Source of the DNA: Oscillospiraceae bacterium
GTDB lineage: Bacteria > Bacillota > Clostridia > Oscillospirales > Oscillospiraceae
NCBI GenBank assembly: GCA_902778285.1
Contig: CACYXC010000002.1
Location: forward strand, 1-56,700
Direction: 5' to 3'
DNA: 56,700 bases
The first letter of the stretch is position 1; each line of letters opens with the position of its first letter. The position numbers and the translations under genes are program-made. Positions 19,837 to 23,804 of this stretch are shown piece after piece. Under the pieces are notes generated by a model. It saw only the letters and a list, made by a program, of their open reading frames with translations, had not been told where the DNA came from and did not search any database.

Positions 19837-21803
19837 GAAAAGTATTGGCATTGCTGCTGACGGCTGTCATGCTGTTGTCATTATGCTGTGGGGTGGCAGG
19901 TGCAGAATCTACAGTGAAAGACGGCACTTATGAAGAAACTGTTTATGGAAACAACTTTACGATTCCGTTCAAAGTTGCGGTTACCTTCGAGAATAACGCC
20001 ATCACTGCAATTGAAGTGACTGACCGCGGTGGCGAATGGGCGGAATATGATGATTCCATTCTTCAGTCCGCGATAGACACCTTCATTCCGCGGATTATCG
20101 AGGCGCAGAGCATTGCTGTGGATGCAACGACCGGTGCGACACTGTCTTCTGCAGGTATTCGCAATGCTGTCCGCATGGCGATTGAAGAAGCCGGCGGTGA
20201 CGTGAAGGATTTCCAGATGAAGCCGGAAAAGAGCATGGAAACGGTTGTGATCGAGGGCTATGATGTCGTCGTTGTCGGCCTCGGTGCTTCCGGCGTCATG
20301 GCATACTGCAATGCCGCTGATGCCGGCGCAAGGGTTTTTGGCATTGATGCCGCGGCGAGAATTGGCGGTACATCCACGCAGACCAGCGGACCGATGGCTG
20401 TAAATCCCGCATCTGAAAGCGTGCAGAGTGGGGAGACTGTGGATGCAGAGGCTTTCAAAGCTCTCTGGAAGGAAGATACTGCCGGCGGTGCGAAGGACGA
20501 ACTGATCGATCTGATCGTGGACAGATCCGGTGAGACTCTCGACTATGCAATTAATGAGCTCGGATACTCGTTCTACCCGACCATGCCTTTCTTCTATCCT
20601 GATCTCGCGGTTTGGGCAACCTATAACTGTGAAGAGCAGTCGATCCACGATATGATGGTGAAAGCCATCGAAAGTCGCAAAGCACTGAACGATAAGAATG
20701 ACTACATGCTCGAACTGAAAGGGCATGAGATCCTCAAGGATGAGAATGGAGCGGTTGCCGGGGTAAAGGCTGTAGCCTATGATGGTACCACTTATGAAAT
20801 CCACGCGCCTTCCGTCATTCTTTGTACCGGCGGTTTCGGTGGAAACAGGGAGATGACGACGGAAGCTTACGGCTATCCGATCAGGCTGCACGGCATGTAT
20901 CAGAACGATGGTACAATGATAAAGGCGGCCATTGACGGCTTCAATGCCGGTACTTATTCCATGTCTTCAGCCGGCATGTGCCATTCGGGACGTACTGCTA
21001 ATCTGGTCCGGATCGAAGGCGTGACGCCCGGACATAATAAGGCTCTTTCTGCGATCGCAAACAACTATGATATTCTGGCCGTCAATGAAAATGGCGTGCG
21101 TTTTGCAAATGAAGCAGGCAGCATGACGGTTGCAGAAAATTACTGGCGTGGCGGAACAGAGTATTATTATGCGATCGTTGATCAGGCTTACATGGACGAT
21201 CTGAAAGAAAATGGATTTGACAGCGTGTATATGATGATCAATACTCAGGATTTCTCCGATTCCGCGTGGTATCCGTTTATTTCCGAAAATAATGAGTACG
21301 CGCTCCTCGAGAACGATCCGATCACGGATATGGATGCGTTGATCGAAGGCTCTATCGCGGCAAAGAATCTGTATAAGGCAAGTACGGTCGCAGAACTGGC
21401 CGAGTTGATCGGTGCGACAGAACTGAGTGCTTCGGTTGATGCGTACAACGCCTCCTGCGAGAGTGGTGAAGATACAGAATTCGGCAAGGGCGCGGAATTC
21501 CTGAGGAAAATCGATGAAGCCAGCGGTGCTGTCTATGCCATCAAGGCCGCACCTTATTGCTATAGTACCAACGGTGCACTGGATGTCAATGTGAACATCG
21601 AGGTGCTGGATGCTGACGGTAATGTGATCCCCGGCCTGTATGCGTGCGGCACGGATTCCATAGGAGTCTTGTTTACGGAAGAGACCGGCTACATTGACTA
21701 CGGTGGTGTTGCTCATGGCTGGTGCTTTACGTCCGGCAGGATCGCAGGTGAGAATGCCGCTGCGTATGGCATGCGGATGAACGAGACGGCAGAAGCTGCA
21801 TAA
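19833..21803 (+). CDS. Secreted FMN-binding FAD-dependent reductase (flavocytochrome c/fumarate reductase-like)
   Basis: 656 residues. Signal peptide 1-24 (cleavage after AGA). FMN-binding domain at about 28-115 with the flavinylation motif D97-A-T-T-G-A-T103, where ApbE would attach FMN to the final Thr. FAD_binding_2 domain from about 140 (VVVVGLGASG; TQTSGPM; ILCTGGFGGN; C-terminal YACGTDSIG and GYIDYGGVAHGWCFTSGRIAG). No haem-binding CxxCH motif. Relatives reduce fumarate, urocanate, cinnamates and similar acceptors outside the cell, often fed by flavin-based extracellular electron transfer. The substrate is not predictable; the co-encoded MerR suggests substrate induction. ATGA overlap with merR. 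Confidence 0.92.
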   Translation: MRKVLALLLTAVMLLSLCCGVAGAESTVKDGTYEETVYGNNFTIPFKVAVTFENNAITAIEVTDRGGEWAEYDDSILQSAIDTFIPRIIEAQSIAVDATTGATLSSAGIRNAVRMAIEEAGGDVKDFQMKPEKSMETVVIEGYDVVVVGLGASGVMAYCNAADAGARVFGIDAAARIGGTSTQTSGPMAVNPASESVQSGETVDAEAFKALWKEDTAGGAKDELIDLIVDRSGETLDYAINELGYSFYPTMPFFYPDLAVWATYNCEEQSIHDMMVKAIESRKALNDKNDYMLELKGHEILKDENGAVAGVKAVAYDGTTYEIHAPSVILCTGGFGGNREMTTEAYGYPIRLHGMYQNDGTMIKAAIDGFNAGTYSMSSAGMCHSGRTANLVRIEGVTPGHNKALSAIANNYDILAVNENGVRFANEAGSMTVAENYWRGGTEYYYAIVDQAYMDDLKENGFDSVYMMINTQDFSDSAWYPFISENNEYALLENDPITDMDALIEGSIAAKNLYKASTVAELAELIGATELSASVDAYNASCESGEDTEFGKGAEFLRKIDEASGAVYAIKAAPYCYSTNGALDVNVNIEVLDADGNVIPGLYACGTDSIGVLFTEETGYIDYGGVAHGWCFTSGRIAGENAAAYGMRMNETAEAA

Positions 21804-21903
21804 AACCTGTTTTGCGCAGGTTATAAGTAAGCGCTCAACAATCACCCGCCAATCGAGTAGGAGGGGCTGAGTCAGCCCCGACCTTGAAGCGGTTCCCTGA
21901 TAA

Positions 21904-21973
21904 TGCAACCCGCCTCAAAAAATGCATCCGGCTTCTTCAAAAGTGAAACCGGACTCATCGGATTTGAAACTCG
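21904..21973. repeat. Degenerate ~21-nt tandem repeats, transposon-end-like
   Basis: Three and a half imperfect units, TGCAACCCGCCTC (21904), TGCATCCGGCTTC (21923), TGAAACCGGACTC (21944) and TGAAACTCG (21965), spaced 19-21 bases. Multiple terminal repeats of this kind are known at the ends of IS21-family elements, but no istA/istB genes are present, so at most a solitary end remains. Upstream lies a small hairpin (GGGGCTG/CAGCCCC, about 21863-21880). Confidence 0.45.
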
Positions 21974-22033
21974 TTTTCTCCTGTGGTTTCATTTTGCTGG
22001 TCGCATTCTATCATTTTCAAATTACTAAGCCAC

Positions 22034-22127
22034 GTCAAAACAAGGCCGCAAGGTCATGTGGCGGCACAAGCACCGCCACATCGACCGGCGGCCTTGCTTC
22101 TATCGTTTCCGATCGTCATGTTTTGAC
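22034..22127. repeat. Nested inverted repeat, 94 bp
   Basis: Outer arms GTCAAAACA (22034-22042) and TGTTTTGAC (22119-22127) are perfect complements. Inside, CAAGGCCGC (22041-22049), GGTC (22052-22055) and ATGTGGCGG (22056-22064) pair with CCGCCACAT (22073-22081), GACC (22083-22086) and GCGGCCTTG (22088-22096) around an 8-nt loop, with only three unpaired bulge positions. No T-run follows, so it is not an obvious terminator. A small mobile-element remnant is one explanation. Confidence 0.6.
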
Positions 22128-22155
22128 TGTCCCGTAAGAGTTTACAATTTGTTTA

Positions 22156-22184
22156 TTGACAAATCTCAAAAACAAGAGTAAAAT
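22156..22184 (+). promoter_or_regulatory. Consensus promoter of a non-coding transcript
   Basis: TTGACA at 22156-22161, 17-bp spacer, TAAAAT at 22179-22184. There is no open reading frame of any substance downstream until after a terminator at 22437-22472. Confidence 0.85.
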
Positions 22185-22190
22185 CCGCGG

Positions 22191-22472
22191 TACTGGAGAT
22201 GGGCGGCATCCCATCGGTGTGATCGGCACCTTAACCCGCAGAGCATGACCAGTTTACTTGCGAGCCGCCGGCGGCTTGGCAGCCGGACGTTGGGCGGGCA
22301 ACAATCGTCAGAAACAATCCACTCACCACTATTTGACGAGCAACCGATTTTGACCTCCTGCAGGCAAAGCGCGCCCCCTGCATCTGGCGGTCACGGCACA
22401 TCCACTATTGATATCTAACATCATACGGATTGCTAAAGGCTCCTTCCTGCAATGCGGAGGGAGCCTTTTTTT
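22191..22472 (+). ncRNA. Candidate structured non-coding RNA (~280 nt)
   Basis: Bounded by a consensus promoter and a strong terminator, with no coding frame. The 5' domain is closed by ACTGG (22192-22196) with CCAGT (22249-22253), and contains hairpins GATGGG/CCCATC (22198-22203/22210-22215) and GGTG/CACC (22216-22219/22227-22230). A middle domain has alternative pairings CGGCT-TGGC-AGCCG near 22272-22285 and GTTG-GGCGGG-CAAC near 22289-22302. The 3' domain has TGACC plus TGCAGG paired to CCTGCA plus GGTCA (22351-22393). Size, context-independence and structure bring to mind the clostridial raiA-motif RNA, but I cannot verify that from memory; a covariance-model search would decide. Confidence 0.65.
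22437..22472 (+). terminator. Strong intrinsic terminator of the ncRNA
   Basis: AGGCTCC (22437-22443) pairs with GGAGCCT (22460-22466), extended inward by TTCC/GGAG, followed by seven T (22466-22472). The following 246 bases up to 22718 hold no feature I can name. Confidence 0.92.
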
Positions 22473-22718
22473 GCGCGAAGTCAAAAAGGATTGGAACCAC
22501 AGTCAGCAGCACCACTGTCACGAACAGGCGATTCGGCCCATCGGAGCGGCGATGCTTCTTATGGGCAGGTATCGGGACTATTCGCGTTCGAGCGGACGTA
22601 CAGAATCCGGAGACCTATGGACGGAGAATCGGGTCAGAGACCTGTATCGAACTTGACAGATATGGTATCGTAATTATAGAAGCTGAAAAAACAGAATTAC
22701 TTGATGGGAGAGATTCTT

Positions 22719-23804
22719 GTGCCGTTTCAAATCCTTCGAAACGATATTACTAAGGTCGAAGCGGACGCCATAGCCAACACCGCCAATCCGGAGCCCGTGA
22801 TCGGCGGCGGAACGGATTACGCCATTCATAAAGCGGCCGGGCCCGAGCTGCTCGAGGCGCGGAAACAGATCGGTGAGATCTGCACGGGGCAAGCTGCAGC
22901 TACGCCGGGTTATCGGCTTCCTGCGAAGTATGTATTGCATACCGTCAGCCCTGCATGGATTGACGGTCAGCACCATGAAGAGGAAGACCTGCGCAAGGCC
23001 TATGACGCCGCCCTGCAGTTGGCAGATAAGCTGGAATGCAAATCCGTGGCATTTCCGCTCATGGCAGCAGGCACCTATGGCTTTCCTCACGATATTGCGC
23101 TGTCTACAGCAATCCGGGCATTTACGGATTTTCTGATGGATCACGAGATACAGATCTATCTTGTGCTGTTCAACGCAAAAGCATTTGGTATAGCCGGCTC
23201 CATCTTCGACGACCTGAAAAGCTACATTGATGACAACTATGTCAGGGAGAGAACAGAAGAAGAGTATCAGATCGATGCGTTTCAAAGACCGGGCTTCTCC
23301 GCGGCGCGCCGGAGCAGGGTGGAGTTTCAGCGCCGCCGCAGGGAGAGAGAACGCGACAGGCAGGATTCCTGTGAGGGCAGCATCCTTCAGGCACCGATGG
23401 CAGATTCTTTGCCCTATGAAAGCTCCTCGTTGGATGATTTTCTTAAGCAGCGCGAAAAAACGTTCTCGGAGTATCTGCTGGATCTGCTGAAGGAGCGAAA
23501 CGGCAAAGACTCCGAAGTGTACAAAAGAGCGGAAGTCAGCAGGCAGCTGTTCAGCAAAATTCTTAACACTCCCGACTATCAGCCAACCAAAAGTACAGCC
23601 ATCCAGATCGCTCTGGGGCTGCAGTTGGATCTGGCGCAGACACAGAAGCTGCTTGCCAAAGCCGGCTACGCTTTGACGCGGAGCAGCAGGGCTGACCTGG
23701 TTGTACAGTATTATATTGAGCGTAAGATTTACAGCGTGACATTCATCAACGCTGCTCTGGACGACTGCGGCCTGCCGCTTTTGAAGACGGGATTCAGAGC
23801 GTGA
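22719..23804 (+). CDS. Macro domain protein with C-terminal helix-turn-helix-like region
   Basis: 361 residues from the GTG at 22719, chosen because GGGAGAG lies 6 bases upstream and the macro domain then begins at its usual place (PFQILRNDITKVEADAIANTAN). The macro domain (about 1-160) has NTAN, GGGTDYAIHKAAG and GTYGFP, the ADP-ribose-binding loops. A very basic linker follows (RRSRVEFQRRRRERERDR). Residues about 240-355 are helical and resemble an XRE-type HTH (RAEVSRQLFSKILNTPD ... TAIQIALGLQLDLAQTQKLL). It would bind or hydrolyse ADP-ribose adducts; the HTH suggests regulation or nucleic-acid targeting. A vWA gene follows. Confidence 0.88.
   Translation: MPFQILRNDITKVEADAIANTANPEPVIGGGTDYAIHKAAGPELLEARKQIGEICTGQAAATPGYRLPAKYVLHTVSPAWIDGQHHEEEDLRKAYDAALQLADKLECKSVAFPLMAAGTYGFPHDIALSTAIRAFTDFLMDHEIQIYLVLFNAKAFGIAGSIFDDLKSYIDDNYVRERTEEEYQIDAFQRPGFSAARRSRVEFQRRRRERERDRQDSCEGSILQAPMADSLPYESSSLDDFLKQREKTFSEYLLDLLKERNGKDSEVYKRAEVSRQLFSKILNTPDYQPTKSTAIQIALGLQLDLAQTQKLLAKAGYALTRSSRADLVVQYYIERKIYSVTFINAALDDCGLPLLKTGFRA

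Follow-up and report, generated by a model that had tools for sequence, protein, structure and literature searches.

Among described systems, the type III toxin-antitoxin systems come closest to the RNAs reported here. In those parts of PMC5086642 that deal with their layout, they are bicistronic, with a terminator between a tandem pseudoknot RNA and an endoribonuclease gene, and three families are described. In AbiF systems (PMC12373285), a non-coding RNA lies beside an abortive-infection protein. Like the RNA reported here, the raiA motif (ModT, RF03072) is pseudoknotted, clostridial, about 200 nt in length and encoded by a free-standing gene. Drum RNA (RF02958) has, to our knowledge, no known function; two papers that matched its name in the literature searched concerned boron clusters and structure prediction. 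Here we analysed an RNA gene in a 56,700-nt stretch of Oscillospiraceae DNA (the window) together with its relatives. Sequence and covariation indicate that, like a type III locus, it encodes a pseudoknotted RNA flanked by a promoter and a terminator of its own. Unlike one, it holds a single module, with no direct-repeat family in 21780-22760, and is followed directly not by a toxin gene but by a macro-domain gene.

The stand-alone RNA gene occupies positions 22156-22472 of the window on the forward strand and consists of a promoter, about 280 nt and a terminator (Table 1). Its promoter was the top match on both strands in a scan of 21400-23000, and the position of the -10 box places the expected transcript start at about 22191-22195. 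No open reading frame of at least 60 aa overlaps 22185-22407 on either strand; three frames of that length begin within the 3′ end of the RNA gene. The automated terminator scan missed the hairpin at 22435-22468, and the terminator was read from the inverted repeat and the seven T. A second copy lies in the window's genome (G000:C3:28596-28742). Among 61 distinct copies from the genus, all carry a sigma-70 promoter with at most three mismatches in twelve positions 6-10 nt 5′ of the core, compared with 14 of 61 when each upstream sequence was shuffled once, and 59 have a terminator 3′ of the core (5 of 61 when shuffled). The preliminary description, made from the letters alone, had proposed this promoter, an ORF-free stretch of about 280 nt and a strong terminator, and all three were borne out. 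The distance from core start to T-run divides the copies into two classes, a short one (145-206 nt), to which the sister on G000:C3 belongs, and a long one (223-298 nt), to which the window copy belongs. A leader peptide or other reading frame was rejected, because the core holds no ORF of at least 60 aa and core lengths, which range over 146-160 nt in alignment A1 with an H1 loop of 5 or 6 nt, vary by increments not divisible by three.

Table 1. Features of the RNA gene in the window (compensatory pairs are those changed on both sides).
Feature	Position	Strand	Description and support
Promoter	22156..22184	+	-35 TTGACA 22156-22161, 17-nt spacer, -10 TAAAAT 22179-22184; 11/12 sigma-70 match
Conserved RNA core, one module	22195..22352	+	R1 match 150.2 bits, E 1.1e-38, the window sequence being one of the 14 copies from which covariance model R1 was built; alignments A1, A3
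Helix H1	22198..22215	+	GATGGG/CCCATC, 22198-22203 with 22210-22215; 4/6 pairs compensatory, 100% cells paired
Helix H2	22216..22230	+	GGTG/CACC, 22216-22219 with 22227-22230; 2/4 pairs compensatory, 100% paired
PK1 5′ strand	22222-22226	+	ATCGG, loop of H2
PK2 5′ strand	22235..22239	+	CCCGC, partner GCGGG 22294-22298 in H6 loop; 97.1% paired, 2/5 pairs compensatory
Hairpin H4	22243..22261	+	92.7% cells paired, 1/5 pairs compensatory
Helix H5 (with PK3)	22264..22286	+	CCGGC/GCCGG, 22268-22272 with 22282-22286; 4/5 pairs compensatory
PK3	22264-22266 with 22273-22275	+	GCC/GGC; 98.1% paired, no change on both sides
Helix H6	22289..22302	+	GTTG/CAAC, 22289-22292 with 22299-22302, loop bears PK2 3′ strand; 3/4 pairs compensatory, 100% paired
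Helix H7, variable stem	22305..22339	+	TCGTCA/TGACGA; 6/6 pairs compensatory, 69% cells paired
PK1 3′ strand	22344..22348	+	CCGAT, pairs with H2 loop; 98.8% cells paired among genus copies
Extra 3′ domain of long form	22351..22434	+	hairpins 22351-22393 and 22395-22434; single-sequence fold, z -1.7
Intrinsic terminator	22435..22472	+	AAAGGCTCCTTCC/GGAGGGAGCCTTT then T7; inverted repeat 22435-22447/22456-22468

Of the 62 genus copies collected, 35 were aligned to R1 (alignment A3) to assess covariation. Copies with an insert or without the 3′ part (L101, L104, L115 and L116) were excluded, and L108 and L113 were included although they had failed a 3′ pattern filter. Standard pairs filled 94.5% of 1451 cells. 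Both-side changes, for which the preliminary description had proposed looking in an alignment of homologues, occurred in 22 of 43 pairs, a count equalled in 0 of 500 shuffles; the alignment was fitted to nested helices and so favours them, and the pseudoknots lie outside the model. The covariation score was 0.263 against 0.113 in shuffled alignments (0/500) and at most 0.050 when the alignment was slid. For PK1 no pair changed on both sides within the genus, and such changes are found in the nuclease-linked relatives described below. At its outermost pair nine cells were treated as gaps; inspected by eye, they show G-C in place of A-U in the L102-type copies and in L112. The compact relatives L111 and L113 have alignment gaps in place of H4. 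Covariation supports a core RNA that is heavily pseudoknotted.

Folding energy alone is weak evidence for a structured RNA: the whole RNA including the terminator has a z of -2.1, and the core, in which pseudoknots are unscored, has +0.4. The extra 3′ domain folds no better than 10 of 200 shuffles; 17 long copies were aligned. All three pairs of complementary segments singled out in the preliminary description are present in the window. GATGGG/CCCATC is the conserved helix H1, and TGACC...GGTCA closes a 3′ hairpin of the long form, with similar hairpins visible by eye in other long copies. The third, ACTGG/CCAGT, is by eye unkept in relatives, and a helix formed by it was rejected.

Several copies depart from the common form. 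In L101 and L104 an insert of about 70 nt, seen by eye, separates H2 from the AACCCG segment. L115 and L116 (G099) are without H6, H7 and the PK1 tail, keep promoter and terminator, and are probably decaying, judged by eye. A GATCGCGAC-type hairpin recurs 3′ of the core in L102-L110 and several long forms (by eye). L079 was kept in alignment A8 despite a 3′ end that differs from the rest.

Of 60 relatives searched at the DNA level, 12 genomes carried the element, all of the window's own genus. R1, built from 14 copies, matched 50 of 102 genus genomes at E<=0.01 with 1-3 matches each, or about 49 once a chance match by eye is discounted (L120 in G003, E 0.0022); among the better genomes of the genus the RNA is present in 14 of 34. 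L120 and L114 (G138), by eye coding-like chance matches, were dropped before the locus counts, and a second weak R1 match in G015 (C34) is not in the locus set. When 295 genomes sampled across the order were searched, R1 matched two, namely the window's own and G138, the latter by chance as judged by eye. In a collection of named sequences, 49 stretches hold the exact motif. Those titles that name a site mention the rumen, omasum or abomasum; RUG in genome names stands for rumen genomes. The taxon titles are Oscillospiraceae, Ruminococcaceae, Clostridiales, Clostridia or Eubacteriales, mostly on metagenome-assembled entries. A viral origin was rejected, as the exact core pattern occurred in 0 viral contigs and the window RNA had no match in the phage and plasmid collections.

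Neighbouring genes mostly vary, the widest neighbour cluster being shared at 8 of 62 loci. Common neighbours occur within small groups of copies, chiefly the clade L102-L110. Because promoter and terminator are conserved, the core covaries and the neighbours mostly change, the proposal in the preliminary description of a stand-alone functional RNA is strongly supported.

A second covariance model, R2, was built from the 35 genus copies only and searched blind outside the genus. Among 300 genomes of the family four matched, three of the genus and one outside it (G599; L122, E 1.6e-9). Among 391 genomes of the class three matched, one of them the window's own and two outside the genus (G714 and G680; L123 and L124, about 2e-9). 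All three outside relatives have a PBECR4 gene within about 75 nt downstream, a link beyond what the preliminary description could see when it read this sequence as an RNA. PBECR4 is PF18813, 'phage-Barnase-EndoU-ColicinE5/D-RelE like nuclease4' in Pfam; the genes at L122 and L123 matched it at E 3.6e-30 and 2.2e-27, and L124's place was found in the PF18813 search. On the PBECR4 proteins Pfam reported only PF18813, apart from one weak match, and the comparison with solved structures gave no convincing relative (best E 1.3). At the PBECR4 loci PADLOC gave only a weak MTase_II match, with no ToxN, CptN or TenpN model among the matches. PF18813 genes are present in 2 of 102 genus genomes (3 genes) and in 8 of 196 class genomes (10 genes, E<=1e-6); two PBECR4 loci lie on the record of Erysipelothrix phage phi1605 and one on a plasmid record, and three single-protein scans of viral contigs confirmed none.

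A third model, R3, was built from L122, L123, L129, L130 and L132. Searches of individual loci with it took in 19 loci in one round and ten in another. It matched upstream in 8 of 16 PF18813 loci (L129, L130, L132, L133, L134, L142, L143 and L169; E 2e-33 to 8e-9), of which L129, L130, L132 and L134's place, which is that of L123, were training sequences and L133 is a near-identical twin of L134. Untrained confirmations came from L142 (5.1e-16), L143 (7.8e-9) and L169 (4.4e-16). L147, L148 and L159 were found by R3 itself, and Pfam confirmed their PBECR4 genes. Over the 391 class genomes R3 found 25 places in 23 genomes. When 17 PBECR4 proteins were compared with these places by tblastn, an intact gene was seen alongside at 6, three of them training places or the twin, a fragment of 93 aa at 1 and none within the flanks at 18. 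Of these last, by eye, about 6 are probably chance matches inside genes and 12 are RNA-like. Orphan RNAs are thus common, the window RNA among them, and one genome, G904, has three. At L151 the start resembles a broken PBECR4 gene by eye, and tblastn gave no match at E<=1e-3.

A terminator precedes 11 of 17 PBECR4 genes of all kinds (31 of 340 when shuffled). Between RNA and gene it was found in 5 of 10 R3-type loci tested, the other five having, by eye, a hairpin that lacks four consecutive T. Promoter-like boxes upstream of the PBECR4-linked RNAs were seen by eye only.

The PBECR4-linked RNAs have two modules in tandem, each combining a pseudoknotted hairpin with an A-rich linker, for example AGAAAAA. 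Each module runs from a short segment, PKa, through a hairpin and a hairpin of the form GNNG-loop-CNNC to the linker, from which order L143 deviates slightly. Where two modules are present, the pairing partner of loop 1 is the segment that follows the linker, that of loop 2 is the first PKa, and that of the H2 loop is the tail; the one-module RNA of the window has a single loop, whose partner is the first PKa. At seven loci these long-range pairings are complete (PK1 41/41, PK2 28/28, PK4 28/28), and when strands were swapped between loci 181 of 240, 140 of 168 and 106 of 168 positions, respectively, still paired; the segments were set by eye, which favours pairing, and the swap is the only control. 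New PK1 compensations in the two-module RNAs are AACTGA/TCAGTT and GACTGG/CCAGTC. A fuller check on five loci aligned with MAFFT gave both-side changes in 17 of 34 pairs (0/500 shuffles); the number of further pair types was not above shuffles (357/500), and the helix 107-109/119-121 was only 47% paired.

We then compared the two groups of RNAs. R3 recognised five of the eight genus copies given, L111 at 2.6e-7 (the match begins 31 nt before the core), L033 at 3.5e-4, and L113, L102 and L112 at 0.007-0.014; it missed L110, L118 and L051. On the window RNA it scored 7.3 bits with an E of 0.063 in 3 kb, behind a chance match at 0.029. In the other direction, R2 recognised 2 of 18 further R3-type loci, both weakly; it was weak on L129 (1.2e-4), L130 (9.6e-4) and L132 (0.0088), and found near nothing on L142 and L143. 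Because L123 has a near-identical H1-H2 sequence, the pairing scheme is shared and R2 found its matches blind, the genus RNAs and the PBECR4-linked RNAs very probably form one family.

Drum RNA also occurs upstream of PBECR4 genes, at L140 with 88.9 bits and at L139 with 43.0 (gathering score 43); matches below the gathering score were found upstream of PBECR4 at L136 and L141 (34.4 and 33.8 bits). The scan against drum and the rest of Rfam covered 12 PBECR4 loci, with L133-L135 as well as L142, L143, L159 and L169 outside it; by eye L135 resembles L140. Drum had no match at the R3-positive loci scanned with cmscan (5 in one scan and 14 in another), nor had R3 at the drum RNAs; what drum and the R3-type RNAs share is the position upstream of PBECR4. 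L131 and L138 have an RNA-like sequence before PBECR4 that matches neither R3 nor drum, perhaps a further RNA partner.

The PBECR4 loci resemble the type III layout. As in ToxIN, CptIN and TenpIN, tandem pseudoknotted modules with A-rich linkers lie upstream of a predicted nuclease gene, at half of the loci tested with a terminator between; by analogy the protein would be toxic and the RNA would neutralise it. In contrast to the described families, the protein is PBECR4 and not one named ToxN, CptN or TenpN, and the modules, which are independent H-type units in type III RNAs, here pair with each other and, by 5′ hairpin and tail, into what the pairing scheme predicts to be a closed ring. AbiF systems share with the PBECR4 loci the position of an RNA next to a protein, which here is PBECR4. 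We tentatively propose, at somewhat short of an even chance, that the family is the antitoxin of a new type III toxin-antitoxin family built on PBECR4 nucleases and served by at least two RNA classes including drum, that its antitoxin would be a closed ring of interlocking pseudoknots in place of independent units, and that orphans such as the window copy may serve across rumen bacteria and other Clostridia in an anti-addiction or anti-phage role. If PBECR4 pairs are toxin-antitoxin systems, type III gains a new toxin family and a new antitoxin architecture, and the orphan RNAs become a testable case of RNA-based anti-addiction. Its position upstream of PBECR4 would also suggest a possible function for drum RNA.

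For the window RNA itself, we give about even weight to its being an antitoxin-like orphan, retained most likely as a means of neutralising PBECR4-type nucleases that enter from outside. At PBECR4 loci the RNA would bind and block the nuclease, which perhaps cuts its RNA into units. The window RNA would be a one-module orphan member without a toxin gene, and after transcription would close on itself, its H2 loop pairing with the 3′ tail and its H6 loop with CCCG. So closed, it may be a compact mimic of the antitoxin unit that titrates PBECR4-type nucleases arriving on mobile elements, acting in trans as an anti-addiction or immunity RNA, which we consider its most likely use. No partner is demonstrated for it, because no PBECR4 gene was found near the RNA or elsewhere in its genome and only 2 of 102 genus genomes have one; a trans PBECR4 partner in its own genome was rejected on the strength of the PF18813 search, the assembly being 89% complete. 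A tblastn search for PBECR4 in 71 genus RNA neighbourhoods gave one weak match (E 0.005).

The main rival to this trans-neutralisation is a separate cellular role: a free-standing RNA with a job of its own, as scaffold or trans regulator, that shares ancestry with the nuclease-linked RNAs and is no longer, or never was, an antitoxin. We regard this as rather unlikely. It would fit the retention of the RNA, with intact promoter, terminator and structure, in about half of a genus from which PBECR4 is nearly absent, the orphans elsewhere, sometimes several per genome as in G904, and the added 3′ domain of the long form; however, the patchy presence even among good genus genomes and the mostly differing neighbours are unlike housekeeping RNAs, and the three closest outside relatives all adjoin PBECR4. 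That the RNA is kept in half of the genus almost without PBECR4 would also agree with its serving as antitoxin to some other, unrecognised toxin whose gene lies elsewhere in that organism's genome. This we consider improbable, as no neighbour family occurs at more than 8 of 62 loci and the type III systems described in the relevant parts of PMC5086642 are bicistronic.

A cis-acting leader or riboswitch is disfavoured already, and we think it very improbable. The next gene downstream on the same strand does encode a macro domain (PF01661, E 6.5e-34), and could be the target of such a leader; yet the RNA gene ends in its own terminator, as do nearly all copies, the downstream gene differs in relatives and often lies on the opposite strand, and no downstream gene is conserved, as would be looked for in a riboswitch or cis-leader. 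The macro-domain half of the macro/vWA gene pair seen in the preliminary description was confirmed; the vWA matches of the gene after it stayed under their cut-offs.

Identity with raiA or another Rfam family is next to negligible, for although ModT is of similar size, is a free-standing gene with its own promoter and, in the text of PMC11706538 on its structure, has two pseudoknots, RF03072 gave no cmscan match at the locus at E<=5 (its cut-off being 101.3 bits) and no match to any Rfam family reached gathering score at the RNA. The resemblance to raiA suggested in the preliminary description was thus not upheld; the window RNA is further set apart by its patchy distribution, and RF03072 rose above its cut-off in 0 of 40 relatives, its 17 weak matches including no known copy of the window RNA. 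The Rfam search that had also been proposed there was run with Rfam 15: at gathering scores cmscan of the whole window reported only two tRNAs, and within 21900-22700 there were two weak matches, each lying on the terminator hairpin (E 0.62 and 1.1). No match over gathering score was found at the RNA in six genus copies (L105, L111, L112, L113, L053 and L118), where the nearest was anti-hemB with 30.6 of 49.5 bits in the 3′ part of L111, nor in the RNAs of L122, L123, L129, L130 and L132 or 14 R3 loci. By these sequence comparisons the family of the window RNA is absent from Rfam 15, which, as far as that release goes, supports the earlier suspicion that it may be undescribed. PBECR4 had no mention in the literature searched, weak evidence of absence as most subscription journals lie outside its scope; in the same literature no pairing of an RNA with PBECR4 was found among the matches listed for type III systems, antitoxin RNAs and nucleases. 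Both the family and its pairing with PBECR4 therefore appear undescribed in the sources searched, and the present analysis offers, for an RNA family outside Rfam 15, a structure backed by covariation and a tie to nuclease family PF18813.

On the phi1605 record the RNA-PBECR4 pairs L142 and L169 lie between res-subunit and recombinase genes, near both ends of the 90-kb record, and one of the two copies has an in-frame stop by eye. At L071 (G034:C57) a short and a long form of the genus RNA stand in tandem on one strand, the matches being 454 nt apart start to start. In the window, a palindrome at 22038-22099 flanks the RNA gene; it has three weaker relatives in the genome, with 78%, 73% and 75% identity over 56-67 nt, and is perhaps a dispersed palindromic element.
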